Shown piece after piece: positions 3,966 to 21,614 of a stretch of DNA of 30,832 bases. Position 1 is the first letter of the stretch; each line of letters begins with the position of its first letter. Origin of the DNA: a virus; the IMG/VR virus record IMGVR_UViG_3300046463_000093, positions 1 to 30,832 of that record. The stretch is one strand, 5' to 3'. The notes below the pieces were generated by a model, which made no database searches, was not told where the DNA came from, and saw nothing but the letters and a program-made list of their open reading frames with translations. The translations under genes and the position numbers were made by a program.

Positions 3966-4699
3966 TGGGGTATCTTTTACAGTCGTCCTCTGGGTTATCA
4001 GATACTTATTTCGCGAGCGGTTCGATTTGGTTTCGATCTGTCGGCGGAGCCGCGAACACTCCTCTTTTGCAAATATTAACTCCTGGTCTATTTAGTGATA
4101 ATGGCGGAATAGATTTCGGTTGCAATTCTGGCTCTGGATTCCAGATGAATTTTGCAGGAGACACCTATTCCAGCGGGAATTATGCATCAATAAATAGTCC
4201 AAATTTTGCAATTGCAGGAGATGCATGGCATCACGTCTCATTCGCGGTAGATGCAAATCACGATGTTTCGTACACGGCTAATTTAGTATTTGACGGTTCA
4301 TCTAAATCTATGACGACGACAGCGGCACCATCTCCACCTGACCGCAGGCAGATTAAACTAAACGGGCTAGATGTTGGATTACCAGGACTACCTGTTTCTC
4401 CATCTTACGATGCTGGAGGCTTAGGCGGCGGTTCTTTGCCTATTTGTTTCGGTGATTATCAGTTCTGGGTTGGACAATATATTGATTGGACCAATGCGAC
4501 TAATTACGCGAAGATAGTTAACGTAAGCGCTGGAAAGGGAACGCCGGTTGACCCAGCAATAGCCGCCGCTGCTTTCGGTCAACAAACCTTGTTGTTCAAG
4601 GGCAATCATACAGCGTTCACAAACAATCTAGGAACCGGAGGCGCATTCACGCTAACCGGAACAGACGCGGATTTCACCCCAACGCCTAGCTATGGATAA
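3965..4699 (+). CDS. Laminin G/concanavalin A-like structural protein
   Basis: The 244-residue protein looks all-beta, rich in Gly, Ser, Thr and aromatics. The segment AWHHVSFAVD (W88-H89-H90) followed by NLVFDGSS is the characteristic strand pair of LamG/concanavalin-type lectin folds, which bind carbohydrates. There is no signal peptide. The gene is coupled to the portal stop by a one-base overlap. The sequence is visibly more AT-rich than portal and terminase, hinting at recent acquisition. A lectin-like protein this early in the head module is unusual; it could decorate the capsid or bind glycans on the host surface or the environment. A tail fibre component is an alternative. The fold call is moderately sure, the role is inference. 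Confidence 0.6.
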   Translation: MGYLLQSSSGLSDTYFASGSIWFRSVGGAANTPLLQILTPGLFSDNGGIDFGCNSGSGFQMNFAGDTYSSGNYASINSPNFAIAGDAWHHVSFAVDANHDVSYTANLVFDGSSKSMTTTAAPSPPDRRQIKLNGLDVGLPGLPVSPSYDAGGLGGGSLPICFGDYQFWVGQYIDWTNATNYAKIVNVSAGKGTPVDPAIAAAAFGQQTLLFKGNHTAFTNNLGTGGAFTLTGTDADFTPTPSYG

Positions 4700-4877
4700 G
4701 CCAACAGACAACGCATTGCTCGGCACGCTCTTGAGGCTGCGCAACAACGCGCTCGACTTGGAACTGCGTGACCTCGCTCTCGCTTATAACGAATCTGCCA
4801 GACGACTAGCGAACGATATTACCGCGAAACACATGATAGCATTTGCAAAGGCTGTTAATGCATCAAAACGAGCGTAG
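4692..4877 (+). CDS. Small helical protein, 61 aa, unknown function
   Basis: The ATG at 4692 overlaps the end of the LamG-like gene by 8 bases, so translation is probably coupled. The product MDKPTDNALLGTLLRLRNNA... is almost entirely predicted helix, with alternating Leu and charged residues compatible with a coiled coil or helical bundle, and no transmembrane segment. No family was recognised. Its place between portal and MuF genes suggests a minor head or accessory role. Confidence 0.55.
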   Translation: MDKPTDNALLGTLLRLRNNALDLELRDLALAYNESARRLANDITAKHMIAFAKAVNASKRA

Positions 4878-4882
4878 TTGCG

Positions 4883-4978
4883 ATGATGAGCATCGTCATC
4901 ATCATCGTCACTATCTTGTGGCGCTAAACATCAATGGCGAAATCAACATTCTTCGACCGAATAAGGAACACATCATAA
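4883..4978 (+). other. Two possible 14-codon mini-ORFs before the Ig-like gene
   Basis: Bases 4883-4927 encode a 14-residue hydrophobic peptide (MMSIVIIIVTILWR) and 4934-4978 encode MAKSTFFDRIRNTS, whose TAA overlaps the ATG of the Ig-like gene (TAATG). Neither has a clear ribosome binding site. The chain of stop-start overlaps could couple translation into the Ig-like gene. They may equally be chance; nothing beyond the arrangement supports them. Confidence 0.2.
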
Positions 4979-5289
4979 TGATTGAAGTCACCGTTGGTCA
5001 TCAAATCGTTTGCACGATTTCCTATCTCGACCAGAACGGCAATCCGATGCTGACGCAGCCGACGCCCGATAGCGCGCCGGTTTGGTCGAATAGCACGCCG
5101 GCCACGGAAACGCTGGTTGCGGCGGCTGATGGTAGTTCGGCCACAGCTACCACGGTAGCTGCCGGAACGGACGTTGTGAGCCTGAGCGTTGTGGTTGGCG
5201 GGCAGACGTTTGCCGCGACTTTGGCAGTGCAGGTTGACGCTCCGCCGCAGGTATTGACATCCGTCAGCATTGCCGCGGTTGCGCAGTAA
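4978..5289 (+). CDS. Ig-like (bacterial Ig/cadherin-type) domain protein
   Basis: The ATG at 4978 is preceded by AAGGA ten bases upstream; a longer frame from a TTG at 4843 exists but its extra residues are an unlikely His-rich run, so I chose 4978. The 103 residues form one beta-sandwich of the bacterial Ig type: VTVGHQIVCTISYLDQNGNP, then a Trp (PVWSNS), then ADGSSATATTVAAGTDVVSL and a final strand. Single Ig-like domains are common phage decoration or tail-tube add-ons that weakly bind glycans. Here it sits between portal and MuF genes, so capsid decoration is the more likely role. The exact Ig subfamily cannot be told by eye. Confidence 0.65.
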   Translation: MIEVTVGHQIVCTISYLDQNGNPMLTQPTPDSAPVWSNSTPATETLVAAADGSSATATTVAAGTDVVSLSVVVGGQTFAATLAVQVDAPPQVLTSVSIAAVAQ

Positions 5290-5296
5290 CAAATCA

Positions 5297-5428
5297 ATGC
5301 GGCGCGGGCTAGTGATTGGCTCGCGCCGTTTAATTCTTGTGGCGCTGTTGTTGCTTTCCGGCTGCGCTACGTCGGAGTCTCCCGGTGCCGGTGACCTGTG
5401 GAAAGTCTGCGTGCAGTATAAATGCTAG
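5297..5428 (+). CDS. Tiny lipoprotein, 43 aa
   Basis: The frame encodes a complete bacterial lipoprotein: basic N-terminus with RR, hydrophobic stretch LILVALLLL, lipobox LSGC (C23 would be lipidated), then only 20 mature residues starting CATSESPGAG and containing two further cysteines (C38, C43). The stop overlaps the MuF start by 7 bases (ATGCTAG), so the two are translationally linked. No strong ribosome binding site is visible. The size and lipobox recall Rz1-type outer-membrane spanins, but no partner spanin or lysis gene is nearby. Small phage lipoproteins can also block receptors against superinfection. Lipoprotein is well supported by sequence; the role is open. Confidence 0.7.
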   Translation: MRRGLVIGSRRLILVALLLLSGCATSESPGAGDLWKVCVQYKC

Positions 5429-6987
5429 TCGTCGCTAAGGGCGAGCTGGATAGCCGGTGGGTTTGTAGGCATCATAAGACAAAGGTTATTAAAACATCGC
5501 GTAATAATAACCCAAGCGTTATTATTTCCAAGGCCGACACCACAGAAGTCCAACGTCTCCTAGCGCAGCAATCGCAACTATCCGCGCAAGTCAGACGTTC
5601 GTTCATGGATGCCGTCTCGCGCATTCAAGACCAGATCGACGTTGACCAGGTTGCTCAGTTGCTACGTCAAGGCCAAACGCAACAGGCAATCGAGCAAGCC
5701 ACCCAAGCCGTCATGGGCGGCTATGGTTCGCTCGGGACTGCTATAACGCACGCGACGATTACCGCTGGCATTACCGCGGCGCAGGCTTCGCCAGAGCTTG
5801 GAGAACTAGGCGTATCGTTCGGCATTACCAATCCTGGAACTATTCAGTTCCTGCAAAATTACGAGATGAACCTTATCACAGGTTTATCTCAGGATTCGCT
5901 CGCCTCTGTCCGCGCAGCTATTCAGGCCGGTGTTACTGCGGGGCGTAATCCGTTAGACATCGCTCGTGACATACGCGACTTGATCGGGTTAACCCCTAGA
6001 CAAACTCAAGCCGTATTGAACTATCGCGGGTATCTGGAAAACCTTGATCCTGCGGCGTTGGCTAGAGACTTGAGAGACGCGCGGTTCGATCCAACGATAC
6101 AATCGGCGCTGGACGATCAGTCGTCTTTATCGGCGGACTATATCGACAAGGTTGTGGCGCGCTATCAATCGCGCATGTTGAACTATCGGGCCGATACGAT
6201 TTCTAGGACTGAGGCTTTGCGCGCGGTGAACGCCGGCAATCATCAGTTGTGGAATGGCGCCGTGAATAGCGGGACGCTCGGCGCCGATCAGGTTGTTAGG
6301 CAATGGATCTACACTAGGGATGGCAGAACCCGTCCGTGGCACGTTTCGGTTCCATCGTTAAATCCAGATGGGGTCGGATTGAACGAACCGTTCGATACTG
6401 AGCTTGGCCCGATGATGTATCCGGGGGACGAGAATGGACTTCCGGAAAATTCCATAAATTGCAGATGCACGGTTTTTTATCGCGTCAAGCCGGACCTTGG
6501 AAAGCGCGATGGGCCACGCTATATTGCGCCTATGGAGAAGTCCAACCCATACCACGAGCCAGCAGGCAGCCCAATTGGTGGGCAGTTTGCGTCTAGTCCA
6601 ACCGGAAAGCTTCCTCTACCAGATACATTTGCCATACCGCGCGCTCCCAACGAAACAGAAATGCGAATACACAGCCGCATTGAAAATGTTCCGCTTAATA
6701 GGGCTTTGGGAACAGAGACGACGCGACAGTGGGAAAGGTTTAACAATGGCGATCACCCACCAGAATTAATAAGTGGTTATGGTGACAAGCCTGTAGCAGC
6801 TAAATTATCTAACGGAAATTATCTTATTTACGACGGACACCACCGCGCCGAATTGGCGTTGAAAAATGGCATTATGTCGCTTGATATGCATGTAATCAAC
6901 GTAAAAGATTATGCACCTGGTTCTGACCAAAAACCTTCGAGCGGTCCATCAATCGACGAACTTTTCAGAGAACTTACGAAGCCGTAG
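5422..6987 (+). CDS. MuF/SPP1 gp7-type head protein with C-terminal ParB-like domain
   Basis: This 521-residue protein combines several parts. Residues 1-37 are an N-terminal extension starting MLVVAKGELDSRW. Residues about 40-255 are helical. Residues about 256-355 carry the MuF signature: SRTEALRA near 260, DGRTRPWH near 299, GLNEPFD, YPGD and INCRC near 346. Residues about 377-392 are a linker, HEPAGSPIGGQFASS. Residues about 430-505 resemble a ParB/sulfiredoxin-fold domain: VPL, KPV, then YLIYDGHHRAELAL with D471-G-H-H-R475, the ParB catalytic/nucleotide-binding motif. MuF proteins are minor head components, and MuF-effector fusions are known as phage-carried polymorphic toxins. The DNA from about 6600 on is more AT-rich, suggesting a swapped-in domain. 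Confidence 0.88.
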   Translation: MLVVAKGELDSRWVCRHHKTKVIKTSRNNNPSVIISKADTTEVQRLLAQQSQLSAQVRRSFMDAVSRIQDQIDVDQVAQLLRQGQTQQAIEQATQAVMGGYGSLGTAITHATITAGITAAQASPELGELGVSFGITNPGTIQFLQNYEMNLITGLSQDSLASVRAAIQAGVTAGRNPLDIARDIRDLIGLTPRQTQAVLNYRGYLENLDPAALARDLRDARFDPTIQSALDDQSSLSADYIDKVVARYQSRMLNYRADTISRTEALRAVNAGNHQLWNGAVNSGTLGADQVVRQWIYTRDGRTRPWHVSVPSLNPDGVGLNEPFDTELGPMMYPGDENGLPENSINCRCTVFYRVKPDLGKRDGPRYIAPMEKSNPYHEPAGSPIGGQFASSPTGKLPLPDTFAIPRAPNETEMRIHSRIENVPLNRALGTETTRQWERFNNGDHPPELISGYGDKPVAAKLSNGNYLIYDGHHRAELALKNGIMSLDMHVINVKDYAPGSDQKPSSGPSIDELFRELTKP

Positions 6988-7165
6988 CTATAACTAGCGC
7001 GGCTAGAACCTCTAACCTATTCTTCAAGTCAGTAATTATCTCTTTCGTGAACTCATCCTTCGCCGGATGCAGTTCCGCCAATTCGTGCAAATCCGATAAC
7101 AGCGCAAGCAGCGAACCGTATGGCTCCGGCAATCTAACCGGCTGCATTCCTGCGCGCTGAAACAT
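6974..7165 (-). CDS. Small antisense protein, 63 aa, unknown function
   Basis: The minus-strand frame from ATG 7165 encodes MFQRAGMQPVRLPEPYGSLL..., a Leu- and Glu-rich helical protein with no transmembrane segment and no recognised family. The ribosome binding site is weak; the region just before the ATG is one arm of a 10-bp inverted repeat. Its last 14 bases overlap the 3' end of the MuF-ParB gene, so the two are convergent. It could be a moron, or a protein linked to the ParB-like domain (for example immunity), but immunity genes for such fusions usually follow on the same strand. The coding call itself is moderate. Confidence 0.5.
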   Translation of the reverse strand: MFQRAGMQPVRLPEPYGSLLALLSDLHELAELHPAKDEFTKEIITDLKNRLEVLAALVIATAS

Positions 7166-7168
7166 GAA

Positions 7169-7244
7169 TGTGCCCGGCGTAACGTCAACGCCACACTAAT
7201 CAGAAAGCCTAATGGCGATAGGGCGAATGATATGGCCGGGCACA
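7169..7244 (-). promoter_or_regulatory. Inverted repeat in the leader of the 63-aa antisense gene
   Basis: TGTGCCCGGC (7169-7178) and GCCGGGCACA (7235-7244) are perfect 10-bp reverse complements separated by 56 bases. On the minus-strand transcript the second arm ends 3 bases before the ATG at 7165, so pairing would bury the ribosome binding region. A smaller repeat (GGCGT/ACGCC) lies inside. No other gene is visible in 7166-7276. Confidence 0.4.
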
Positions 7245-7276
7245 GCCTTCTAACGATCCAATAATGGATACAAACA

Positions 7277-8026
7277 TTGTACGCCACAGACTCTAAGATT
7301 TTGGCTCCGGTATCTAAGCTATTGCCGCCGCCGGCAATGGCTGAATTCGTCGTCGCGGCTAATGACGCCGACCGTGCCGGGATGGATCACAACGAGTGCA
7401 TGAAGTCGGCATGGGGCGCCGTCTGGGAGAACTGGCGACGGACCAATAAGGGCCATTACGTCCGCAAGGACAACCCAACGGCTTCCGGTCCTGGTGGCGT
7501 TCATGTCGATGCGCCATTGGGTGGTGGCAAGAAACCCAAGAAGAAACCAAACCTTTCGATTGACGACGAGGCTGGCAGCGATCTTGAGGAAGAAGTCGTT
7601 GACGATGTGCGGCAGGTTTATCGCGCCAACAAGATTCTAAAGGTCGATGATTCCCTTGGTCTTGTGTTCGGCTGGGCGATTGTCTGTAAGCAGGACGGCG
7701 AAGATTATTTCGATCTACAGGACGACCATATCCCAGAAGATACCATGATTAAGGCCGCCACTGATTTCATGCAGAACTCTCGCGTTGGCGGCAACATGCA
7801 CGAGACGGACGAGTACGGAGACCCAGTAGCTTCCGGTGACATTGTATTTGCCATGCCGTTGACGGCGGACGTTGCCAAGGCGTTCGGAATTGAGACAAGC
7901 ACAACCGGATTGATGATTGCCTATAAGCCGGCAGACGATGCCATTTTACAGAAGTTCCGTGAGGGGAGCCTCACCGGCTTCAGTATCGGGGGTGTCCGCG
8001 GCATCGATGAGGAAGTCCCGGAATGA
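7277..8026 (+). CDS. XkdF-like putative prohead serine protease
   Basis: From about residue 118 the sequence follows the XkdF pattern: KVDDSLGLVFGWAIV, then DYFDLQDDHIPEDT, MHETDEYG, and near the end STTGLMIAYKP and SLTGFSIGG. This is the protease-like fold class that processes the prohead and scaffold. The N-terminal part (MAEFVVAANDADRAGMDHNE...) precedes a linker with GPGGVHVDAPLGGGKK. Two starts are possible: TTG at 7277 (249 aa) or ATG at 7337 (229 aa); neither has a strong ribosome binding site. The stop overlaps the next start (ATGA). The catalytic triad cannot be fixed by eye, so protease activity is inferred from family and position. Confidence 0.7.
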   Translation: MYATDSKILAPVSKLLPPPAMAEFVVAANDADRAGMDHNECMKSAWGAVWENWRRTNKGHYVRKDNPTASGPGGVHVDAPLGGGKKPKKKPNLSIDDEAGSDLEEEVVDDVRQVYRANKILKVDDSLGLVFGWAIVCKQDGEDYFDLQDDHIPEDTMIKAATDFMQNSRVGGNMHETDEYGDPVASGDIVFAMPLTADVAKAFGIETSTTGLMIAYKPADDAILQKFREGSLTGFSIGGVRGIDEEVPE

Positions 8027-11122: not shown

Positions 11123-12124
11123 ATGGCTAATCCGCAACGCTCTGACGTCCACGTTGATACGCCGCTTACGGCTATCAGCGTGGCATACATGCAAGACCCG
11201 GCCGGCTTTGTTGCCGATCGGGTTTTCCCGAACGTGCCGGTCCAGAAACAGTCTGATCGGTACTTCGTCTATTCACGCGCCGACTTCAACCGCGACACGA
11301 TGGCAAAGCGCGCCATCGGTGCGGAATCAGCCGGCGACGGCTTCCGACTCGACAATACTCCGACTTACTTTGCCGAGCCGTATGCACTGCATCACGACAT
11401 CGACGACCAGATCCGCTCGAATGCGGACGGTCCCCTCGATCTCGACCGTGATGTGACTAACTTCCTGTCGCAGAAAGCCCTGTTGAACAAGGAAAACAGC
11501 TTCGTCTCGAACTTCTTCACGACCGGCGTTTGGACCGGCGCGAATGTGGACGTGACGGGCGTTTCCGCTTCTCCGGCTGGTAACACCGCGCTGCAATGGA
11601 ACGACTCGAACTCGACTCCGATCGAGGACGTGCGCTTGTACGGCGATACCGTGCAGGGCAAGACGGGCTTCCGCCCGAACAAGCTTGTCGTGGGACGCCA
11701 GGTCTGGTCGAAGCTTATCGACCATCCCGACCTGACGGATCGTATCAAGTACGGCACCTCGTCTGCTGTCAATCCCGCGATTGTCACCAAGCAGGCGGTG
11801 TCGATGGTGTTCGAGCTTTCCGAAGTTCTCGTCATGGAGGGCGTGCAGAACACCGCGAACGAAGGCGCGACCGAATCCGGCTCATTCATTGCCGGCAAGA
11901 ACGCGCTGCTCGTTTATGCGGCTCCTGCTCCTGGCATCATGATTCCCACAGGTGGTTATACCTTCTCGTGGACCGGATTGTTCGGGGCTGGCCCGCTCGG
12001 CCAGCGCGTCATGAAGTTCCGCATGGAATGGCTCAAGTCGGATCGCGTTGAACTGGAAATGGCTTATGCCATGAAGGTGATTGACGCAAAATTGGGCGTC
12101 TTCTTTAGCTCAATCGTAGCTTAG
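11123..12124 (+). CDS. Major capsid protein (HK97-fold type)
   Basis: The 333-residue protein has the pattern of phage major capsid proteins: N-terminal SVAYMQDPAGFVADRVFPNV, then QSDRYFVYSRADFNRD, a central domain with FRPNKLVVGRQVWSKL and HPDLTDRIKYG, and the C-terminal LLVYAAPAP, TFSWTG and SDRVELEMAYAMKV. It forms the icosahedral shell. Codon use is the cleanest in the window (many C-ending codons), consistent with very high expression. GGAA lies nine bases before the ATG. A terminator-like hairpin follows the stop. No cleavage site for a delta domain is evident, in keeping with a separate scaffold gene. Confidence 0.92.
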   Translation: MANPQRSDVHVDTPLTAISVAYMQDPAGFVADRVFPNVPVQKQSDRYFVYSRADFNRDTMAKRAIGAESAGDGFRLDNTPTYFAEPYALHHDIDDQIRSNADGPLDLDRDVTNFLSQKALLNKENSFVSNFFTTGVWTGANVDVTGVSASPAGNTALQWNDSNSTPIEDVRLYGDTVQGKTGFRPNKLVVGRQVWSKLIDHPDLTDRIKYGTSSAVNPAIVTKQAVSMVFELSEVLVMEGVQNTANEGATESGSFIAGKNALLVYAAPAPGIMIPTGGYTFSWTGLFGAGPLGQRVMKFRMEWLKSDRVELEMAYAMKVIDAKLGVFFSSIVA

Positions 12125-12319: not shown

Positions 12320-12679
12320 ATGGCCAGAGCCTCGATATGGCTGGCGAAATTCAACCGCGAGGCTGATTTCGTCGCGCAAAGACCAATGCTGGTTAATGGT
12401 GCAAAACTTCTGCCCGGCGACCTGATAGACAAAACGAAATTCTCGACCAGACGCCTGCGCTGTCTTTATGAAATGCGCAAGATACGGGTTGCTACTTTGA
12501 ACGAGAGGCAATTGCTGCGCTGGGAAATCAATGAAGATGGCAGTGTTAGCGGGTCTCCGGTAGCCCTGGAAACGTTTAAAATTGATCCGTCTACTATGAT
12601 TACAATACACGCAACGCCAGGCGAAATAGTGCGTGTCGCACCCAAGAAACGCGGCCGTCCAAAACGTGCCGTTGCCTGA
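12320..12679 (+). CDS. Unknown basic protein with AT-hook-like end, 119 aa
   Basis: The product begins MARASIWLAKFNREADFVA and has a compact mixed middle containing LLPGDLIDKTKFSTRRLRCLYEMRKI in outline, then ends in the basic run KKRGRPKRAVA, similar to an AT-hook (core RGRP) that binds AT-rich minor groove. The ribosome binding site is weak (GGAT 11 bases upstream). It is the first plus-strand gene after the capsid terminator and overlaps the next gene. Its opening makes it a possible small head-tail or DNA-associated protein, but no family was recognised. Confidence 0.6.
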   Translation: MARASIWLAKFNREADFVAQRPMLVNGAKLLPGDLIDKTKFSTRRLRCLYEMRKIRVATLNERQLLRWEINEDGSVSGSPVALETFKIDPSTMITIHATPGEIVRVAPKKRGRPKRAVA

Positions 12680-13331
12680 ATACAGCGAAATAAAGCCGCC
12701 ATACTGGAACGACAAGCCGCTGCTGATTGTTGGTTCTGGTTCGTCGCTAAAGGGATTTGACTTCAATAGATTGCGTGGGCTCGGCTACATCCTTGCGGTT
12801 AAGGAATCCGTCTGGGATTTGCCGTTTGCCGATGCCTGTTTTTCATTGCACCTGCCGTGGACAAAGCGGCGCGAACAAGAATTAAAAACCCTTGCGGTGC
12901 CGCTCTATCTCGCGGTGCCAAAAGGCATGTCGGAAAAACAATATGGACCGATTATTCCTGGTGCCATCTACATTGATAGAGGTAACGAGAAACACCTGTC
13001 TGATAATCCGGCGCTCATCCACGCGGGCGGTAATAGTGGATTTGGCGCTCTTAACTTGGCTTATCTTAAGCGCGCTAAATCAATTTACCTCTTTGGCTTC
13101 GACTTCAACCGCAGTGGCGGACACTACTGTCCCGACAGATACGAAGAACCAGACAGCCACAATGCCCGCTATTGGGAAAATTGGGGCGACAACTTCATTA
13201 ACACTAAGCAGCAACTTGCGAACGCTGGAATATCCGTAACCAACGCCTCGCCTAATTCATCCGTTAAAGCATTTCCGAAGGTAACAATTGAAGCGGCGCT
13301 GGAGCGTTTACATTGGTTTCGAGCCGCGTGA
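12633..13331 (+). CDS. Rossmann-fold protein of DUF115/MptE- or GT42-like type
   Basis: The core starts LLIVGSGSSLKGFDFNRL (about residues 30-47), a nucleotide-binding loop like those of DUF115/MptE-like proteins and GT42 sialyltransferases. Later GNSGFGALNLAYLKRAKSIY and LFGFDFNRSGGHY follow the same fold, where a buried helix precedes the strand and acidic substrate loop. It therefore probably acts on a nucleotide-activated sugar or related substrate. Starts at GTG 12633 (232 aa) or GTG 12666 (221 aa) are possible; both overlap the preceding gene. The next gene begins inside its 3' end. Family resemblance is by eye only; a catalytic role is inference. Confidence 0.6.
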   Translation: MSHPRNAAVQNVPLPEYSEIKPPYWNDKPLLIVGSGSSLKGFDFNRLRGLGYILAVKESVWDLPFADACFSLHLPWTKRREQELKTLAVPLYLAVPKGMSEKQYGPIIPGAIYIDRGNEKHLSDNPALIHAGGNSGFGALNLAYLKRAKSIYLFGFDFNRSGGHYCPDRYEEPDSHNARYWENWGDNFINTKQQLANAGISVTNASPNSSVKAFPKVTIEAALERLHWFRAA

Positions 13332-14028
13332 GGCTCAGGCTTTCGCGGTAGCTAGGCACTCGATACGACGCCGACTTCATGCGCCGATACCAATACACGG
13401 AGTAATCCTTGACGATCTTCGAGCTAAAGGACTTTACACGCGCGAAACGTCGCGGCGTGTCAACGGCGATGGCCGATGGCAACTATGGGATGAAATCTCG
13501 CAAGCTCCATGCAGTACAGAATTCGCCATCAGTAGATTCCTTGTTCCTCATCTGGCCGGTGACGGTCTGGCGCTGTTCATGGATTGCGACATGCTGGTGC
13601 GCGATGACCTATCTAAGTTGTTTCGACAGGTAGAGAACGCATACGAGCAAAAGGCGGTCTGGTGCGTCAAGCACGATTACACGCCACGCGATGCTGTCAA
13701 GATGGATGGGCAGGCCCAGACATCTTACCAGAAAAAAAACTGGAGCAGCTTCGCAATGTTCGATTGCGATGCGCCGGCCAACAAAGCACTAACGGTTGAG
13801 CTAGTGAATACCGCACCGGGGCGTCTGCTACATCAGTTCTGCTGGCTGGCAGACTGCGACATTGGCGAACTGTCACCGGAATGGAATTGGCTGGCCGGCG
13901 AAAGCGATCCGATTGAAAACCCCAAAGTCGTGCATCACACTCTTGGTTCGCCTTGCATGGCTGGTTACGAGAATGTGCCGTTTGCTGATGAGTGGCGCAA
14001 AGAACTTAATAGTTGGGCTAAGAATTAA
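13288..14028 (+). CDS. Putative glycosyltransferase (GT-A, DxD)
   Basis: The 246-residue protein opens VYIGFEPREAQAFAVARHSI, as in GT8-like enzymes that begin with a nucleotide-sugar-binding strand, and has ALFMDCDMLVRDDLSKLF (about residues 109-126) with DCD serving as the metal-binding DxD. Later conserved-looking segments include NWSSFAMFDCD, LSPEWNWLAGE and KVVHHTLGSP, the last resembling the HxxG-type end of GT8 folds. It would transfer a sugar from a nucleotide donor. The TTG start at 13288 has AAGG six bases upstream and lies 44 bases inside the previous gene. The acceptor is unknown; a virion protein or glycan are candidates. Confidence 0.75.
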   Translation: MKRRWSVYIGFEPREAQAFAVARHSIRRRLHAPIPIHGVILDDLRAKGLYTRETSRRVNGDGRWQLWDEISQAPCSTEFAISRFLVPHLAGDGLALFMDCDMLVRDDLSKLFRQVENAYEQKAVWCVKHDYTPRDAVKMDGQAQTSYQKKNWSSFAMFDCDAPANKALTVELVNTAPGRLLHQFCWLADCDIGELSPEWNWLAGESDPIENPKVVHHTLGSPCMAGYENVPFADEWRKELNSWAKN

Positions 14029-14238
14029 ATGGCAAATGCTTATCTCGGCGGTCACCAAGTGTGGAATCTTTGGCGCGGCGCCGGAACCGCTGACTACGCT
14101 ACGGGAGAACTAGATCGCGCTAATAAAGAAAAAGACGTAATCGGCCGCTTGGATGAAATTTCCGCACATTTACAATCAAGCGCATCCCTAGATTATCAAA
14201 CCGAAAAACATCGTTCTCGGCTAATTAAAGCAAAATAA
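14029..14238 (+). CDS. Small protein coupled to the radical SAM gene, 69 aa
   Basis: The ATG at 14029 follows the glycosyltransferase stop directly, and the stop overlaps the radical SAM ATG (TAATG at 14236-14240). The N-terminal part is Gly- and aromatic-rich (MANAYLGGHQVWNLWRGAG) and the rest is a charged helix. There are no cysteines. Its tight coupling to a SPASM enzyme makes it a possible substrate or partner of that enzyme; it could equally be a phage structural peptide. No family was recognised. Confidence 0.55.
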   Translation: MANAYLGGHQVWNLWRGAGTADYATGELDRANKEKDVIGRLDEISAHLQSSASLDYQTEKHRSRLIKAK

Positions 14239-15194
14239 TGAGCATTACCGAACGCATTGACGCGATAACGAAGATTGCTCCTGAATATCTTAATACTGTT
14301 TTGCCTGCGCCCAAGTCTGTAAAAATCGAGCTTACCGGACGCTGCAATTTCTCATGCTCGTTCTGTGCGCGGTCTCTGGAGTTGCGCGACCAGAAGGATA
14401 TGTCGCGCGGCATGTTCGAGCGGCTTGCGCTGGAAATGCGCGAGGCTGGCGTCGAGGAATTGGGACTGTTCTATTTGGGCGAAAGCCTGATGTGCGGATG
14501 GCTTGAGGAAGCTGTCAAGTTCGCCAAGCATACGGCTAAATTTCCATATGTGTTCTTGACGACGAACGGCTCACTCGCCAAGCCACAACGGCTGCGCAAG
14601 CTGTTTGGCGCAGGATTGGATAGCCTCAAGTTCTCCTTGAACTACGCCGACGAAAAGCAGTTCGTTGAGATATCGCGCAGCAATCCGAAGCTGTTTGATA
14701 TCATGATATCAAATATCAAGTCGGCCAAGGCAGAGCGCGACCAAATCGAGAAAGACATCGGCCACCGCTGCGGACTATACGCCTCCTATATTCAGTATGA
14801 CGGCGAACAGGCCAAGCGCATGGGCGCGATGGTTGAAGAACTGGCACCGTATCTCGATGAGATTTATGCGCTGCCGCTCTACAGCCAAGCCGAGTTGGTT
14901 GGCGACAGCGAGCGCGATAAAGGCTGGAACGTCACGGCGGGAAACCGCGGCAGGATCGGTGCCTTACGGTCGCCAATCCCTTGCTGGGCCGCCTTCCAAG
15001 AGGGCCACATAACGCATAACGGCCGCCTCAGCGCCTGCTGCTTTGACCACGATGGCCGCTTTGAAATGGGCGACCTGACCAAGCAATCGTTCATGGAGGC
15101 GTGGAATTCTGCTGCGTTCCAATCGCTGCGAGGTTCGCACTTATGCGGCGACGTGCGCGGGACGGCGTGCGAAACCTGTGTTGCTTACTCTTAG
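14238..15194 (+). CDS. Radical SAM protein with SPASM domain
   Basis: The 318-residue enzyme carries the radical SAM cluster motif CNFSCSFC (C36, C40, C43) in the expected Cx3Cx2C spacing near the N-terminus, followed by the TIM-barrel pattern (LGLFYLGESLM, FLTTNGSLA). The C-terminal SPASM part has C249 (PCWAAF), C267/C268 (SACCFDHDGR), C303, C311 and C314 (CETC), enough to bind extra iron-sulfur clusters. SPASM enzymes modify peptides or sugar-derived substrates by radical chemistry. It lies between two glycosyltransferases and next to two methyltransferases. It is rare in a virion operon. The substrate is unknown: sugar or peptide are both possible. Confidence 0.9.
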   Translation: MSITERIDAITKIAPEYLNTVLPAPKSVKIELTGRCNFSCSFCARSLELRDQKDMSRGMFERLALEMREAGVEELGLFYLGESLMCGWLEEAVKFAKHTAKFPYVFLTTNGSLAKPQRLRKLFGAGLDSLKFSLNYADEKQFVEISRSNPKLFDIMISNIKSAKAERDQIEKDIGHRCGLYASYIQYDGEQAKRMGAMVEELAPYLDEIYALPLYSQAELVGDSERDKGWNVTAGNRGRIGALRSPIPCWAAFQEGHITHNGRLSACCFDHDGRFEMGDLTKQSFMEAWNSAAFQSLRGSHLCGDVRGTACETCVAYS

Positions 15195-15206
15195 GAGGCC
15201 GCTGTC
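15193..15206 (+). promoter_or_regulatory. Perfect Shine-Dalgarno AGGAGG before a GTC codon
   Basis: AGGAGG at 15193-15198 overlaps the radical SAM stop (TAG 15192-15194). Five bases later, at 15204-15206, lies GTC, where homologous-looking proteins would start (continuing GYGDEILGSG). No ATG, GTG or TTG occurs in this frame until 15381. The site decides the start of the next gene and marks an unusual or mutated initiator. Confidence 0.55.
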
Positions 15207-16007
15207 GGATACGGCGACGAGATCCTTGGGAGCGGTCTAGCCAAGGGCGCGGCTAAATATAGGCGGGTTGCTTTCGGTGACGGCAATAAGATTATCTGGC
15301 ATCGCAACGCGCATGAGATATTCCGGGGAAATCCCAACGTTGCGCCGCCCGGATCTGAAGGCAGCGAACCTGTAGACTGGGTGCTTCATTATCCAGGTTG
15401 CCGGGTTTATGCCCGCAGATGGGAAGGGCGCTGGGTTTGGAATCCCGGCTTTAAGGCGATCCCCGGCGAGATTTATCTGACCGAGCAAGAGCGCGGATGG
15501 GCCGCGCAGAACGACGCCGACATTATTGTAGAGCCTAACGTAAAGTATCAGTCTCCGAACAAGCAATGGCCGGTCGATCGTTACCAGAAGGTTGTCGATA
15601 GTCTTTGCGCAGCTGGGTTCAATGTGGCGCAGTTCGCGACAGGAAAACATTTGTTGCGTGGCGCTAGGGTTATTGATGCGCCAAGTTTTCGTGCTGCTTG
15701 CGCCGTATTGGAACGCGCGCAGTTATTTATAGGCCCAGAGGGCGGGCTGCACCACGCAGCGGCGGCAGTCAATACGGATGCTGTTGTTATCTTCGGCGGG
15801 TTCATAGGCCCGCTGGTTACAGGGTACGATTCGCATATCAACCTGTTCACCGGAACGGATAGGGGATGTGGGAATAATATGCCCTGCGCTCACTGCAAGA
15901 TTTGCATGGATCGCATAACGGTCGAGAAGGTTTTGGAATCCGCTGATAAGTTCTTGACAGGCGGTATGCACATTGTCGGACGCAAACATCAGCACATCAA
16001 TGTCTGA
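15204..16007 (+). CDS. Heptosyltransferase-like GT-B glycosyltransferase (GT9 type)
   Basis: Starting at GTC the protein has 267 residues: GYGDEILGSGLAKG at the N-terminus, then IIWHRNAHEIFRGNPNVAPP, and a C-terminal half with PNKQWPVDRYQKVVDSL and FIGPEGGLHHAAAAVNTDAV, the donor-binding loop of ADP-heptose-type GT-B enzymes. A Cys-rich segment CGNNMPCAHCKICM (about residues 221-234) follows, possibly structural. It transfers a sugar onto a glycan or protein. The start is abnormal: AGGAGG precedes a GTC, and the first standard start (GTG 15381) would remove 59 residues including the N-terminal Rossmann loop. It may therefore use a rare start, arise by readthrough of the radical SAM TAG, or be damaged. 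Confidence 0.7.
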   Translation, partial: VGYGDEILGSGLAKGAAKYRRVAFGDGNKIIWHRNAHEIFRGNPNVAPPGSEGSEPVDWVLHYPGCRVYARRWEGRWVWNPGFKAIPGEIYLTEQERGWAAQNDADIIVEPNVKYQSPNKQWPVDRYQKVVDSLCAAGFNVAQFATGKHLLRGARVIDAPSFRAACAVLERAQLFIGPEGGLHHAAAAVNTDAVVIFGGFIGPLVTGYDSHINLFTGTDRGCGNNMPCAHCKICMDRITVEKVLESADKFLTGGMHIVGRKHQHINV

Positions 16008-16524
16008 TTTGATTTCCGAAGAATATCGCAGTCAATTGCTGGCGATGAACGCCGCGGGTGCCTGGGGTGGCGGAGGAGCTAGTTTCGCCAAGCACGCTTA
16101 CAAGCTTGTCAAGCATTACGAGGCCAAGACAATTCTGGATTACGGTTGCGGGCCGGGGACTTTCAAGAAAGCCCTAGCCCAAACTGATTTGACAATCATC
16201 GAATACGATCCTGGAATACCAGGCAAAGAGGCATTACCGCAGCCCGCTGAAATTGTTATTTGTGGCGATGTTCTTGAGCATATCGAGCCGGACAAACTGC
16301 CGAATGTGCTTGCGCATATTCACAGCCTGACTTTGAAGGCAGCCGCCCTGATGATTTCGCTAAGGCCCGCTGAAAAGCGCCTACCGGACGGCCGCAACGC
16401 TCATTTGATAATCGACAATGCGGCATGGTGGTTCCAGCAAATATCAAAGTTTGATTGGAAAGTGGAATATTTGCCGATCCCAAAGCGCCCTGACATTGGA
16501 AGGTTCCTGGCGGTGAAGGTTTGA
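16000..16524 (+). CDS. Class I SAM-dependent methyltransferase
   Basis: From the ATG at 16000 (174 aa; overlaps the GT-B stop by 8 bases), motif I ILDYGCGPGTF and motif II-like VICGDVLEHIEPDKL are clear. The C-terminal substrate part contains GRNAHLIIDNAAWWFQQI. A TTG at 15973 would add nine residues of unlikely sequence. It transfers a methyl group from S-adenosylmethionine, probably to a sugar or other small acceptor given its neighbours. It overlaps the next gene as TTGA. Confidence 0.8.
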   Translation: MSDLISEEYRSQLLAMNAAGAWGGGGASFAKHAYKLVKHYEAKTILDYGCGPGTFKKALAQTDLTIIEYDPGIPGKEALPQPAEIVICGDVLEHIEPDKLPNVLAHIHSLTLKAAALMISLRPAEKRLPDGRNAHLIIDNAAWWFQQISKFDWKVEYLPIPKRPDIGRFLAVKV

Positions 16525-17174
16525 AACAAGTCAAAGGATTCTGGCTACCGAACGGCGAGGAACACCTTGTCCAGTTCTTGAATGATGGACCGGAGTTTGC
16601 CGGTGGTCCGACCTATCAATTGCGCAAACTTTTACCGGCGCTGCAATACGTCAAGAACTTCCGCCATGCAGTTGACATCGGCGCGCATTGTGGGTTGTGG
16701 GCTAGGCCATTAGCGGCCATGTTCCGGAAGGTCACGGCTTTCGAGCCAGTGGCAAGACACCGCGAATGCCTTGAGGAAAATATTGTAGAGTTCGGTATTG
16801 ATAATATCACGGTGCAGCCGTTCGCCCTTGGCGACGAGGAAAAGGAAATCTGCCTAAAGACTGGCGCTAGTTCGAGCGGAGATACGTTTGTTTCTCCCGG
16901 CGGAGAGCATCAAGCGAAAATGCGAAAGCTTGACTCGTTCGGATTGACACAAGTTGATTTCATAAAATGTGACGCCGAAGGATTCGAGTACTTCATTATG
17001 AAGGGCGGCGAGAAAACTATTAGACAATGCAATCCGTGCATCGTGGTGGAGCAGAAGCCGAACAAGGGCAAGAATTTCGGCATAGACGATACCGCTGCGG
17101 TTAGCCTTTTGACTGACTGGGGCGCCAAACTCAGGTTTCAGATTTCCGGCGATTTTGTCCTTTCCTGGCAATAG
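16521..17174 (+). CDS. FkbM-family methyltransferase
   Basis: The 217-residue product shows the FkbM pattern: HAVDIGAHCGLWARPLAAMF with the SAM-binding loop, VTAFEPVARHRECLEENI, and DFIKCDAEGFEYFIMKGGE, where the acidic DAEG segment follows the central strand. FkbM enzymes O-methylate sugars or polyketides. The TTG start at 16521 overlaps the previous stop (TTGA). Two methyltransferases in a row next to glycosyltransferases suggests methylated sugar decoration. Exact substrate unknown. Confidence 0.85.
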   Translation: MKQVKGFWLPNGEEHLVQFLNDGPEFAGGPTYQLRKLLPALQYVKNFRHAVDIGAHCGLWARPLAAMFRKVTAFEPVARHRECLEENIVEFGIDNITVQPFALGDEEKEICLKTGASSSGDTFVSPGGEHQAKMRKLDSFGLTQVDFIKCDAEGFEYFIMKGGEKTIRQCNPCIVVEQKPNKGKNFGIDDTAAVSLLTDWGAKLRFQISGDFVLSWQ

Positions 17175-17954
17175 ATGCTATGGCTCAAGCTTGAGCGCGA
17201 ACGACTAGAAAAGACCACGCGCATATTAAGCGCGCTTGGGGCGGGCTGGGGCGAACCAGCCCAGATGACTCAGGATGACCCTCCTGACGATGGCAATCCG
17301 TTTGTTGTCTGGGGGCAATTGTATTCTGCGCTTCGGTTAATCCCGCAGGCATTAAAGACCGGACGCCCGTTCTGGCAACTCGATAACGGCTTCTGGCAGC
17401 CGGGACGTGGCGGCAACGGCGGATTTTACCGGCTTAATTATCGCGGCCTGTCTCCGATATTAATGGACGAACCGAGCGCACAGCGCGGGTTCTATGGCTC
17501 TCCGTTGCTAAAGCCGTGGCGCAAGACCGGAAAGCACATTCTGCTGGCATTTCCAGGAGATGGTTTCGGACGATCCGTTGGCCTCGATATGACGCAATGG
17601 GCCGAGGATATGAAGCGGATTCTCCCGACAAAAACAGACCGCCCCATTGTTGTTCGTCCGAAGAAATGCGGCACACCGTTAGCCAAGCATTTTGACGATT
17701 GCTGGGCCCTTGTAACTCATTCTAGCAACGTGGCCGTTGATGCTGCAATCGCGGGTGTCCCGGTTTTTGTTGCTGCTTCCAATCCTGCTGCTCCGGTTGG
17801 AAATCTTGATCTGGAAGATTTGGAAAACCCGGTTATGCCGGCGAGGAAGAAATGGCTCTATTCGCTCTCCTGCCAGCAATACACGATTGAAGAAATGAAG
17901 AACGGCACGGCATACGAATTCATGAGCATGGTTAGAAAACAGGTGGACGCATGA
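17175..17954 (+). CDS. Capsular polysaccharide synthesis-like protein (GT-B C-terminal type)
   Basis: The 259-residue protein starts right after the FkbM stop. The first part has FVVWGQLYSALRLIPQALK and PFWQLDNGFW, and the second contains WALVTHSSNVAVDAAIAGVP, the serine-rich loop followed by helix typical of capsule-synthesis (KpsS/KpsC-like) and other GT-B enzymes, then PVFVAASNPAAPVGNL. In those families this loop binds the nucleotide-sugar donor. It ends overlapping the next gene as ATGA. It probably completes the sugar cassette; the exact reaction is unknown. Confidence 0.6.
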   Translation: MLWLKLERERLEKTTRILSALGAGWGEPAQMTQDDPPDDGNPFVVWGQLYSALRLIPQALKTGRPFWQLDNGFWQPGRGGNGGFYRLNYRGLSPILMDEPSAQRGFYGSPLLKPWRKTGKHILLAFPGDGFGRSVGLDMTQWAEDMKRILPTKTDRPIVVRPKKCGTPLAKHFDDCWALVTHSSNVAVDAAIAGVPVFVAASNPAAPVGNLDLEDLENPVMPARKKWLYSLSCQQYTIEEMKNGTAYEFMSMVRKQVDA

Positions 17955-18271
17955 GTTCATGGTGGCGTAAGGCTGCAATTCTTGCTGGGGCAACGTCTGG
18001 TCCCGGATCATGGCGCAAGCGCGCTGCCATTGCTCTTGGCGCAAATAATCAGACTGGCGACACATGGTCGCGAAAGATAGTCGTACAAGAAGGCGTCAAG
18101 GACACGACATTTGGTCCGTGGGATCGCAGATTGGTAACGCCTATTGCTGGTGTTGGCCCGTGGGCGCGCAAGATTTATAACGCCGGATTTGGTCCGCCTG
18201 GGGATTTGCTGCTTACGGACGGCGCATCTCATGTGCTGCTTACCGACGCATCATCAAAACTAATTCTATAA
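17951..18271 (+). CDS. W-x-R-K repeat protein with tail-type C-terminal motif, 106 aa
   Basis: Five repeats carry a Trp followed by basic residues: SSWWRKAAILAGA, GSWRKRAAIALGA, DTWSRKIV, GPWDRRLV and GPWARKIY, at intervals of about 15-22 residues. The C-terminus from residue 84 is GDLLLTDGASHVLLTDASSK, nearly matching the motif in the protein at 22098. There is no signal peptide. Its position between the sugar cassette and the tail fibre makes a minor tail or adhesin role likely. The repeats are obvious in the sequence; no family was recognised. Confidence 0.6.
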   Translation: MSSWWRKAAILAGATSGPGSWRKRAAIALGANNQTGDTWSRKIVVQEGVKDTTFGPWDRRLVTPIAGVGPWARKIYNAGFGPPGDLLLTDGASHVLLTDASSKLIL

Positions 18272-18283
18272 GGTATATTTTAT

Positions 18284-19981
18284 ATGGCTGATTCTACAGT
18301 CGCCGCATTAACTGCGGCATCGACGCTGGACGGCACGGAGCTTTATTATACCGTACAGGGCGCAGCCGATCGCAAGGCTACGGGCGCGCAGATCAAGACG
18401 CTTGTAAGCTCAAGCCCGACACTGGTGACGCCGACGCTTGGTGTTGCTACCGCTACATCCATCAACAAGATGGCCATTACAGCGCCAGCAACAAGTTCAA
18501 CGCTTGCTGTGGCTGATGGCAAGACCCTAACCGCCAGCAACACATTGACGCTGACTGCGACGGATGGATCAACGCTTGCCATAGGGACGGGCGGCACGCT
18601 CGGCAGCAACGCATATACCTCAACGGCATATGCGCCAGCGGCATCTCCTACCATTACAGGCCACGCCACGATTGAAGGCGTAACCGCCACGGGGGCGACA
18701 GGCACCGGCAAGTTTGTATTCGATGGGACGCCGACTCTTGTAACCCCGGTCCTCGGAGCGGCGACGGGGACATCAATTACAGTTAGTGGCGCTCTCTCAA
18801 GCGGCACGCAGCAATCAGCCCAAGGTTCGCTAGTTCTCAACAATACGGCGGCTGGGGCTTTCGCAACGACTATCAAGTCGTCCAACAGCGCAACCGCTGC
18901 CGTCACTTATACATTGCCGACGGCGGTAGGAGCATCAGGAACAGTCCTGACGGATGCGGCGGGAAACGGTGTTCTCAGTTGGGCGGCGGGTGGCGGCGGC
19001 GGTGCAACGCTTGGTGCAAACACATTTACCGATACGCAAACCATTACGCAGGGAACTGCGACACATGCTCTTCTCGTAAGCACAGGCGGGTCAAATACCG
19101 GCTCAGATGCAACGTCGGCAGTCAGTCTTGCGTGGACTCTAAACACATCTGGTTCTCCGGATGTGTTCAAGTTGGCCGTAACGGATACGGCGGGAGGGGC
19201 ATCCACAAAAATAATGAATATTTACGGGGGCTCCTCAGGGACGACAAGTTTGTTTAGTGTGGATCGAGTTGGCAGTATTATTATGGGAGGCGATACCGGG
19301 GGCGGAACATATAATGCTACAATAGATTCTGGACAATGCGGCCTTCATTTAGATGCAAATGGCAGCAGTTTTATTTTTGGAGTTGCTAGTAACACTTTCC
19401 AGATTGGGAAGATTGATGCTCCGGTACCAGATGCACAAACCTTACAGGTGCAATCCACTTCTGTAGGATCCGGGAATAACGCGGGGGCTGACTTTACGAT
19501 TAGGGCATCATTATCAAATGGCAGTGGCGTGGGCGGGAAAATAATATTCAAATCATCCCTGTCATCAGCCGGGTCTGGAAATCTGAATACTGCCGCCGCA
19601 TCATTGACAATTGCAAATTCTAGCGCAACCGGAATAGCCTTCAATGGCTATGGCGCGGGCGCACTTTCGACTGACGCCAGTGGCAATATAACTGCAACAT
19701 CTGATGAAAAGGTAAAGGATATTCAGGGTTCATTTATTTCGGGCCTTGCTGAAATAATGCAGATAAACCCCATTCGTTATCGCTGGAAACAAGGCAGCGG
19801 AATGGAAACGCTACACGAATATGCTGGATTTGGAGCGCGGAACGTCAATAGCGCAATTCCCCTTGCCACCGGCATGACGCCGGACGGGCTGCTTACCTTG
19901 CAAGATCGCGCTCTACTCGCGACCTGCGTCAATGCGATCAAGGAACTCGCTAACAGGATTGGCCCTGATGCAAACCCTTGA
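18284..19981 (+). CDS. Tail fibre/spike with C-terminal S74 chaperone domain
   Basis: The 565-residue protein starts MADSTVAALTAASTLDGTEL, then has long Gly/Ala/Ser/Thr repeats typical of trimeric beta-structured fibres (for example TVSGALSSGTQQ and ANTFTDTQTIT). The C-terminal domain (about 465-565) is of the peptidase S74 type: S473 in TSDEKVKDI, with K478 five residues later, the Ser-x4-Lys dyad of the endosialidase chaperone, then MQINPIRYRWK, HEYAGFGARNVNSAIP and LATCVNAIKELANRI. After trimer folding the chaperone would cut itself off just before S473. AAGG lies ten bases before the ATG. It recognises host surface glycans or proteins. Confidence 0.88.
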   Translation: MADSTVAALTAASTLDGTELYYTVQGAADRKATGAQIKTLVSSSPTLVTPTLGVATATSINKMAITAPATSSTLAVADGKTLTASNTLTLTATDGSTLAIGTGGTLGSNAYTSTAYAPAASPTITGHATIEGVTATGATGTGKFVFDGTPTLVTPVLGAATGTSITVSGALSSGTQQSAQGSLVLNNTAAGAFATTIKSSNSATAAVTYTLPTAVGASGTVLTDAAGNGVLSWAAGGGGGATLGANTFTDTQTITQGTATHALLVSTGGSNTGSDATSAVSLAWTLNTSGSPDVFKLAVTDTAGGASTKIMNIYGGSSGTTSLFSVDRVGSIIMGGDTGGGTYNATIDSGQCGLHLDANGSSFIFGVASNTFQIGKIDAPVPDAQTLQVQSTSVGSGNNAGADFTIRASLSNGSGVGGKIIFKSSLSSAGSGNLNTAAASLTIANSSATGIAFNGYGAGALSTDASGNITATSDEKVKDIQGSFISGLAEIMQINPIRYRWKQGSGMETLHEYAGFGARNVNSAIPLATGMTPDGLLTLQDRALLATCVNAIKELANRIGPDANP

Positions 19982-20117: not shown

Positions 20118-21614
20118 ATGCCTACACTTGAGTCCATCGTCGGACCTGTCCCGGCCAATTATAATATGCTGCCTTGGCCGGGAGCATTTGCAACCGCGAC
20201 GGATTTTACCGTTACGGCACCAGCCAGGGTGCCTTTTTTCTGGACGAATACAAGGTCATCAATTGCTGCGGGGGTAACGGCCCCGGATGGATCAGAGAAC
20301 GCGCAAAAACTTGTCGAGAACTCAGGAAGCGGTACACATTTCGTTCAATCCACAAATGGTCCGACAACAAATATTTTTCCGGTTTCGCGCAAGATCGCTT
20401 TCATTGCCCAGGCGGCAGGAAGAACAAGAATTGTCGTCACGGATCAGAACTTTGAAATTGCAAATGACACTACGTCAATAGGGTTTGATTTATCAGGAGG
20501 CAATGTCGGATACGATAATGTCGTCGGCCCAAATGCAACATTGGTCGATACAGGAATGACCGCCCTCGGAGATGGTTGGTGGCTTGGCTGGTTTGACGTA
20601 ACTAATAGCGATCTTACTGACGGGGTTCGCCAATGGATGCAACAAATAAATTTAGATAATGGATCGGGCACGGCGGCGCGATCTATCAGCTATACAGGCG
20701 ATGGAACATCAGGGGTAAACATCTGGTGGGTCAACATGCTGCCAACAACGGCGTGGACGACTCAAAAACTTGGCCTATTTGATGATTTCAACGACCTATC
20801 AACGATAGACGTCAACGACACTAGGGCTCCTGGATTTAATTGGTACGTTCACAATCTGTTTCCCCATTCGTTTATGACTACGTTCGGATGGACAACAAAT
20901 CCTCCAAGTGTGCCTACTGCGCCAACCACTCTTTCGATTTCCAGTCCATCTGTTTTGAGAATTTACAATGGAAGTCCAACCGCGAACGGATGGGGCTCCC
21001 AGTTGTGGAGTGTGGCAACAGATGGAGGAAATGGGTATGTCGGCACAGTATTTTCTCCGCCGATGTTGATGGAAAGCTATTTTTTTGCGGCTAATTCCGG
21101 CGCAATGTGGGGATCAACGGTTAACGCTTTGCTGCCTACCATTCCGCCATCCGGCAGATTTTTAGAGTGGGATGTGTATGAGAGCACCGGAACCCAAGCG
21201 TATCAGACAGGAACGCGCACACTGCACGAATGGAGCAATCCATCATCCCCGGCGGACAACAAGAATGGATTTAGCTCCGGATTTTATATTCAATCGCAAT
21301 GGAATCGCGTTGCCGGCATGTGGATCCCTGCCGGTTCTGGATGGGGGGTGTTTTTGTCTTTTTGCAACGGCCAATATGTCATCAACACGGATGCCTCTTA
21401 CAATGCTGCGGCGCTCCCCTTGAACTGGACAGATCCCGTGATTGGAACGCCATCGGAAGCCGATATCGAAAAAATGCCGGTATTTTTTAGCTGCACCGAC
21501 GGCGATATTTTTTATATAGACTGGGTTAAGATTTACACAAACCAGACATTAGTAAATCGACATAGAACTGCATCTGACCATCAACGCGGTGTACGCCAAA
21601 TGCAGCAGGCATAA
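20118..21614 (+). CDS. GH16-like putative depolymerase/tail protein with N-terminal carbohydrate-binding-like region
   Basis: The 498-residue protein follows the coiled-coil gene directly. The first part (about residues 45-115) resembles phage carbohydrate-binding modules: VTAPDGSENAQKLVENSG and GTHFVQS. The second half looks like a concanavalin/GH16 jelly roll (NDLSTIDVNDTRAPGFNW ... GFSSGFYIQSQWN ... FYIDWVKIYTNQ). The motif EWDVYE (E350, D352, E355) matches the GH16 ExDxxE catalytic signature, though with Trp in place of the usual aliphatic residue. It may cut host capsule or exopolysaccharide. The catalytic call depends on the motif alone. Confidence 0.65.
   Translation: MPTLESIVGPVPANYNMLPWPGAFATATDFTVTAPARVPFFWTNTRSSIAAGVTAPDGSENAQKLVENSGSGTHFVQSTNGPTTNIFPVSRKIAFIAQAAGRTRIVVTDQNFEIANDTTSIGFDLSGGNVGYDNVVGPNATLVDTGMTALGDGWWLGWFDVTNSDLTDGVRQWMQQINLDNGSGTAARSISYTGDGTSGVNIWWVNMLPTTAWTTQKLGLFDDFNDLSTIDVNDTRAPGFNWYVHNLFPHSFMTTFGWTTNPPSVPTAPTTLSISSPSVLRIYNGSPTANGWGSQLWSVATDGGNGYVGTVFSPPMLMESYFFAANSGAMWGSTVNALLPTIPPSGRFLEWDVYESTGTQAYQTGTRTLHEWSNPSSPADNKNGFSSGFYIQSQWNRVAGMWIPAGSGWGVFLSFCNGQYVINTDASYNAAALPLNWTDPVIGTPSEADIEKMPVFFSCTDGDIFYIDWVKIYTNQTLVNRHRTASDHQRGVRQMQQA

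Follow-up and report, generated by a model that had tools for sequence, protein, structure and literature searches.

The locus described here lies in a 30,832-base stretch of viral DNA (IMG/VR virus record IMGVR_UViG_3300046463_000093, hereafter the window), in which eight genes between positions 12633 and 17954, all on one strand and overlapping or abutting one another, form a sugar-modification cassette that includes a radical S-adenosylmethionine (SAM) enzyme (Table 1). The window proteins were searched against profiles of Pfam, PHROG and NCBIfam. The PHROG matches trace a backbone of terminase (334), portal (2469), head morphogenesis (5422), scaffold (10651) and major head protein, followed by fibre or virion proteins (the second at 20118), head closure, Neck1 and tail terminator and, at the end, major tail protein, tape measure and a glycoside hydrolase (30085); the window is a siphophage fragment, with the cassette between its capsid and fibre/connector genes. 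An original prediction, made from the letters of the window, had described a run of co-directional sugar-modification genes, a radical SAM enzyme among them, in the late structural operon, and both the layout and related loci bear it out. Its place, strand and tight overlap stand, although the run holds eight genes and not the seven that had been counted. Profile searches of each product recovered the enzymes that it had named, except for the product of the last gene, which has no significant family match in Pfam or PHROG.

Table 1. Genes of the cassette and of its flanks in the window
Feature	Position	Strand	Basis of assignment
Major capsid protein (flank, backbone)	11123..12124	+	PHROG 1005 major head protein, 3.7e-80
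Backbone protein adjoining the capsid gene (outside the cassette)	12320..12679	+	PHROG 32158, 2e-7
GT42/sialyltransferase-like protein (Rossmann, MptE-like)	12633..13331	+	PHROG 4603 'alpha-2,3-sialyltransferase', 5.6e-23; weak PF01973
GTA, GT8-like GT-A glycosyltransferase	13288..14028	+	PHROG 28018, 6e-48; DxD D99, D101
69-aa open reading frame (ORF)	14029..14238	+	no Pfam/PHROG family
Radical SAM enzyme, predicted Twitch type	14238..15194	+	PF04055, 6e-13; PF13186, 6e-12
GT9 (heptosyltransferase-like) GT-B glycosyltransferase	15204..16007 (probable start)	+	PF01075, 2.7e-9
Class I SAM methyltransferase MT1	16000..16524	+	PF13489, 1.1e-7; PHROG 24759, 1.9e-20
FkbM-family methyltransferase	16521..17174	+	PF05050, 5.9e-15; TIGR01444, 73.8 bits (cut-off 37.7)
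GT-B-like/capsule-type putative glycosyltransferase	17175..17954	+	weak DUF6716, 0.034; 159-member cluster recurring in related loci
W-x-R-K repeat protein (flank, virion-type, outside the cassette)	17951..18271	+	48% homologue in RHph_Y60
Fibre/virion structural protein (flank)	18284..19981	+	PHROG 6002 virion structural protein, 3e-13

The radical SAM enzyme is, to judge from its cysteines, of the Twitch type with a single predicted auxiliary cluster. In an alignment of 165 homologues, C36xxxC40xxC43, C249, C267, C311 and C314 are invariant, C268 is present in 164 and C303 is not invariant. The first three cysteines and a PF04055 match above its cut-off place the enzyme in the radical SAM superfamily, as had been predicted. 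The further assignment to the SPASM class did not hold. A SPASM motif comprises seven cysteines in the order CX9-15GX4C-gap-CX2CX5CX3C-gap-C (PMC6231123), whereas a Twitch domain is a truncated form with one auxiliary cluster and up to four cysteine ligands. Because SPASM requires seven cysteines, and the 165 homologues conserve only five in the C-terminal part and no CX2CX5CX3C, the enzyme is assigned to the Twitch type: C249-x17-C267 and C311-x2-C314 can be aligned to the Twitch domain of BtrN, a dehydrogenase of butirosin biosynthesis. The profile of the enzyme matches both the radical SAM and the Twitch domain of BtrN; C249 and C267 coincide with BtrN cysteines in this alignment, and the first two cysteines of the auxiliary cluster have the same 18-residue spacing in both enzymes. 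However, identity in the structural alignment is about 15%, and the window enzyme differs in its extra conserved Cys268 and its glycosyltransferase neighbours; the resemblance to BtrN-type dehydrogenases, which oxidize aminocyclitols or sugar alcohols, is one of sequence and fold only.

The enzyme belongs to no named family, and its relatives are common in metagenomic phages and Proteobacteria. None of the NCBIfam equivalogs comes near its cut-off (the best is TIGR04317, with 64.6 against 380 bits), and a metalloenzyme or tungsten-cofactor maturase was rejected on these scores. An antiviral viperin (pVip) was likewise rejected (NF038283, 34.6 bits against a cut-off of 180; PADLOC pVip, 36.6 bits only). 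No member of the family occurs among 50,697 deposited phage records, where the best match has 25% identity, and the best structural match in BFVD is only 20% identical. In the tree of the enzyme, viral and bacterial sequences are mixed, with the window beside the viral loci L002, L003, L094 and L099 and the bacterial loci L168, L170, L174 and L187; this mixing therefore suggests repeated exchange, although some branches are weakly supported. One Burkholderiales genome carries two tandem copies of the same family (G504 C55:39573-41449; 281 and 526 bits).

The radical SAM enzyme has GTA as its conserved partner. The DxD motif of this glycosyltransferase is invariant in its alignment, and the AlphaFold model (mean predicted local distance difference test score, pLDDT, 78.5) has a GT-A fold, for which the top Foldseek matches are GlyE, WbbM, the GT8 structure 3tzt and LgtC, with glycogenin further down; the Pfam GT8 profile PF01501, however, scores it at 14.2 bits, while a relative reaches 24.3. 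Of 85 viral loci with the radical SAM gene, 56 have GTA no more than 7 kb away. All 51 gene-called pairs in phages are on the same strand, and 39 of them overlap or lie within 30 bp, with the radical SAM gene first in 32 and GTA first in 19. When the viral loci are grouped into 60 lineages at 90% identity, 32 have GTA within 400 bp of the enzyme gene and 48 have a sugar gene within 5 kb. The GTA tree contains one clade of 47 (support 0.98), composed of 30 viral sequences, 29 of them accompanied by the radical SAM enzyme, and 17 bacterial ones. The GTAs of L003 and L094 fall in this clade and those of the window, L002 and L099 in a second one, while the radical SAM enzymes of all five fall in a single clade. 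Since two GTA clades accompany one enzyme clade, the transferase seems to have been swapped and the pairing kept.

Other sugar genes recur around the pair in viral loci that carry the radical SAM gene (82 to 85, depending on the count). MT1 relatives are found near 31 of 85 and the 159-member GT-B-like cluster near 21 of 85, and further recurring neighbours are glycosyltransferases with tetratricopeptide repeats (TPR-GTs), FkbM methyltransferases, GDP-mannose dehydratase, DegT aminotransferase and a GT29-like protein. Because the same families recur around the enzyme in dozens of phage lineages, the grouping goes beyond chance. In some phage cassettes, GDP-mannose dehydratase and DegT aminotransferase adjoin the radical SAM/GTA pair; these enzymes make deoxy- and amino-nucleotide sugars and resemble those that precede DesII-type steps. 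Of 82 viral loci, 38 have a TPR-GT gene no more than 6 kb from the radical SAM gene, and among bacterial loci 7 of 80 have one by the enzyme gene. A TPR-GT is found in only 2 of 80 viral loci picked by GTA alone, a selection that leans to the GTA clade of the window. The GT9 protein of the window and the glycosyltransferase domain of the TPR-GTs are, by profile comparison, only remotely related (hhalign E 4.8e-5, probability 68%; no BLASTP match). As to whether the genes are scattered individually in relatives, the pair stays together, although the other cassette genes are shuffled.

Comparison with related phages shows that the cassette was inserted into the structural operon. The nearest cultured relatives of the window by capsid protein, Roseobacter phage RDJL6 and Rhizobium phage RHph_Y60 (48% identity each), lack sugar genes downstream of the capsid gene and carry small structural and tail genes instead; in RHph_Y60, a 45% match to the protein encoded between capsid gene and cassette in the window stands directly 3' of the capsid gene. 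The metagenomic relatives L265 and L267 are also without any cassette gene. By contrast, L099, whose capsid protein is 55% identical to that of the window, has the order GT42-GTA-110 aa-radical SAM-FkbM-methyltransferase-GT-B-like between its capsid and connector homologues. Because L099 has a related set at this site and the other four have none, the cassette is best described as optional cargo with shuffled content. At least 54 of 84 viral radical SAM loci have one of the listed capsid, packaging or connector families within 7 kb. Repeats within the cassette are limited to short, chance-like pairs, so no insertion scar is visible.

The enzyme is also found in bacterial contigs, mostly in metagenome-assembled genomes of Rhodospirillales and Burkholderiales. 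GTA adjoins the bacterial radical SAM gene in few cases; 29 of 37 genomes with the radical SAM gene also have GTA, nearly always elsewhere. Azospirillum halopraeferens, Magnetospirillum and Thalassobaculum fulvum are examples in which the two genes are unlinked. Of 385 genomes of Alphaproteobacteria, 8 encode the enzyme, 38 encode GTA and 7 encode both (7/8 with the enzyme against 31/377 without; Fisher 4.0e-7). Among 399 Burkholderiales, the corresponding numbers are 16, 47 and 14 (14/16 against 33/383; Fisher 1.5e-12), and at order level around Thalassobaculum they are 5, 13 and 4 of 36 (p 0.047). These Fisher tests ignore relatedness, and many of the genomes are incomplete metagenome assemblies. 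At the bacterial GTA loci, a TPR-GT lies within 4 kb in 13 of 20, and GT41, group-1 glycosyltransferase, sulfotransferase and porin (Porin_4) domains recur nearby (L245-L264); these porins might be acceptors. The neighbourhoods of the bacterial radical SAM gene consist mostly of unrelated housekeeping genes, with a subset near nar genes.

Parts of this picture have precedents. The original prediction knew of no described system of this kind, but GT8 glycosyltransferases and radical SAM genes have been reported as gene content in the host-recognition clusters of pelagimyophages (PMC7029224), and radical SAM, methyltransferase and glycosyltransferase genes are enriched together, again as gene content, in Tasman Sea viruses (PMC7150976). 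The pelagimyophage clusters resemble the window in having both gene types, there in a hypervariable region with tail-fibre genes; however, no conserved pair, mechanism, bacterial counterpart or capsid-connector insertion is reported for them (PMC7029224). The capsid protein of Che8 and other F1 mycobacteriophages has been shown to bear a glycan (Freeman et al. 2023, cited in PMC11256854). Phage glycosyltransferases are common to that system and the window, but PMC11256854 mentions no radical SAM step. In Caulobacter, FlmG, a cytoplasmic flagellin O-glycosyltransferase that transfers pseudaminic acid, combines TPR and GT-B domains (PMC7591256), as do the TPR-GTs that relatives carry next to GTA or next to the radical SAM gene; the sections of PMC7591256 consulted describe no radical SAM or GT8-like partner, and the window has no TPR-GT. 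The podovirus ctDrO704 (MW202512, L271, Manatee Spring), a complete deposited genome, carries homologues of TPR-GT, MT1, FkbM and GTA after its capsid gene (locus 4245-7678), annotated as tetratricopeptide repeat, endonuclease, FkbM and galT-like, but lacks the radical SAM gene; it lends itself to use in comparisons. No description of the radical SAM/GTA pair, its bacterial counterpart or its function was found in the literature. Phage glycan cassettes are known, but radical chemistry as a conserved part of them is not described in the literature found.

Taken together, the cassette probably builds a glycan late in infection, with a radical step on a sugar, and decorates a virion protein or, less likely, the host envelope. 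Twitch radical SAM enzymes that act on sugars or aminocyclitols oxidize, epimerize or deoxygenate them, and FkbM methyltransferases often O-methylate sugars. In the proposed sequence of events, a late-expressed cassette would have been acquired between the capsid and head-tail-connector genes, and its GT8-like, GT9, sialyltransferase-like and GT-B-like enzymes would assemble a short glycan. The Twitch enzyme would cleave SAM, and the resulting 5'-deoxyadenosyl radical would take a hydrogen atom from a nucleotide sugar or from the growing glycan, with the single auxiliary cluster aiding oxidation, epimerization or deoxygenation of the carbohydrate. The edited sugar could be transferred by GTA or before it acts, and the two methyltransferases may then cap the glycan. 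The most likely acceptor would be a virion protein of the same operon, because the cassette lies within a structural operon and, elsewhere, the pair is joined by TPR-GTs of the protein type; the host envelope comes second.

Several observations weigh against a sugar-directed, virion-decorating role. The TPR-GT is absent from the window, and the window GTA belongs to the second clade, whose other viral members mostly lack a radical SAM gene. A Foldseek search with the AlphaFold model of the enzyme (pLDDT 79) returns SuiB first, followed by BtrN, viperin and MoaA, and does not separate sugar from peptide enzymes; because SuiB, BtrN, viperin, MoaA, BlsE and DesII match about equally well, the fold does not settle the substrate. 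In bacteria, narG lies 3.7-8.5 kb from the radical SAM gene in 5 of the 14 narG-positive genomes (loci L168, L179, L187, L195 and L236 of genomes G004, G010, G013, G017 and G034), and NarK, NarX and Fnr-type proteins are encoded nearby. This neighbourhood may point to another role, or may reflect only anaerobic expression of an oxygen-sensitive enzyme.

Remodelling of the host surface is the strongest rival, a serious though less likely alternative. The cassette would alter lipopolysaccharide, O-antigen or capsule, excluding other phages or stopping progeny from sticking to debris, and the enzyme would make an unusual O-antigen sugar. The heptosyltransferase-like GT9 fits this view, as do the dehydratase, DegT and sialyltransferase-like genes of relatives, which are of lipopolysaccharide or O-antigen type, and such a role has been proposed for the GT8 genes of pelagimyophages (PMC7029224). 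However, a site beside capsid and fibre genes in a late structural operon is late for surface remodelling, the TPR-GT/GT41-type partners of relatives are of a protein-modifying type, and Pfam and PHROG searches of the cassette revealed no flippase, ligase or polymerase.

It is improbable that the enzyme modifies a peptide or protein, as a maturase of ribosomally synthesized and post-translationally modified peptides (RiPPs) would, with the sugar enzymes separate from it. The place of SuiB, a Lys-Trp crosslinking enzyme, as top fold match and weak NCBIfam matches to peptide maturases, WgkB among them, speak for such a role. Conversely, the enzyme has no N-terminal leader-binding RRE domain, only about 35 residues preceding CX3CX2C; it is of the Twitch and not the seven-cysteine SPASM type; and its strict partner is a glycosyltransferase. 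The two candidate substrates also fall away. The 69-aa protein, which had been thought coupled to the enzyme, has no homologue by tblastn in about 240 loci, beside other family members or elsewhere, and was ruled out as a RiPP precursor on that ground. The W-x-R-K protein, one of those singled out as a target, has a homologue with W-x-R repeats (48%) in the cassette-less RHph_Y60, beside a putative head fibre gene (L269 732-980), and no other protein with three or more W-x-R-K motifs was found in the same loci; it was rejected as a dedicated substrate, and its gene seems to be one of the virion genes, with no tie to the cassette. A part of the window protein at 22098 is similar to the C-terminal stretch of the W-x-R-K protein (LLLTDGASHVLLTDASSKLIL).

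Least probable of all, the enzyme would be a maturase or an enzyme of anaerobic metabolism linked to sugar genes only by co-transport in mobile DNA, as its best NCBIfam likeness (the metalloenzyme maturases TIGR04317 and TIGR04311, far below cut-off) and the nar-region placement in some bacteria might suggest, but co-transport does not readily account for its genome-wide co-occurrence, without linkage, with GTA in two bacterial groups, the pair persists in phages although the order of the two genes changes, and 23 of the 37 bacteria with the radical SAM gene lack narG.

The favoured reading, a radical step on a sugar in a glycan-building cassette, can tentatively be extended to an undescribed protein-glycosylation pathway of Proteobacteria and their phages. 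In this possible pathway, the Twitch enzyme would remodel a sugar, the GT8-like enzyme would add it and TPR- or GT9-type transferases would link it to protein, with C267 and C268 supplying one cluster ligand and one possible hydrogen-atom donor; phages would have captured it repeatedly for virion decoration. The tight link of radical SAM enzyme and GTA, with an order that flips in phages and genes that are unlinked in bacteria, makes this a concrete and testable pathway. The cassette suggests an undescribed step in the decoration of proteins or surfaces with unusual sugars. If true, this would reveal how phages come to cover themselves or their hosts with sugars of unusual chemistry, and it would assign a role to a set of bacterial radical SAM genes that lack annotation.

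Within the cassette, the GT9 gene probably starts at 15204 and not at 15381. Its open frame has no ATG, GTG or TTG before residue 63, but it reads ...AVGYGDEI, with GTC-GGA-TAC-GGC-GAC where homologues begin MG[YL]GD or VGIGD (ATG or GTG). A perfect AGGAGG at 15193-15198 overlaps the radical SAM stop codon and lies five bases before this GTC; the start at 15204 is proposed because the homologue starts align at the GTC and the AGGAGG stands at this distance. The GTC appears to be a non-canonical start, a mutation or a sequencing error. At the other end of the gene, the ATG of MT1 at 16000 overlaps the GT9 stop codon. A promoter and terminator scan gave no clear excess over shuffled sequences, so that an internal promoter is not shown. 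The sequence searches also gave a hit on a Brachyspira plasmid. Upstream of the capsid gene, the protein encoded at 7277-8026 has matches to a 'DNA methyltransferase' PHROG as well as to head maturation proteases, and its homologue in RHph_Y60 is annotated as DNA methyltransferase/prohead protease.

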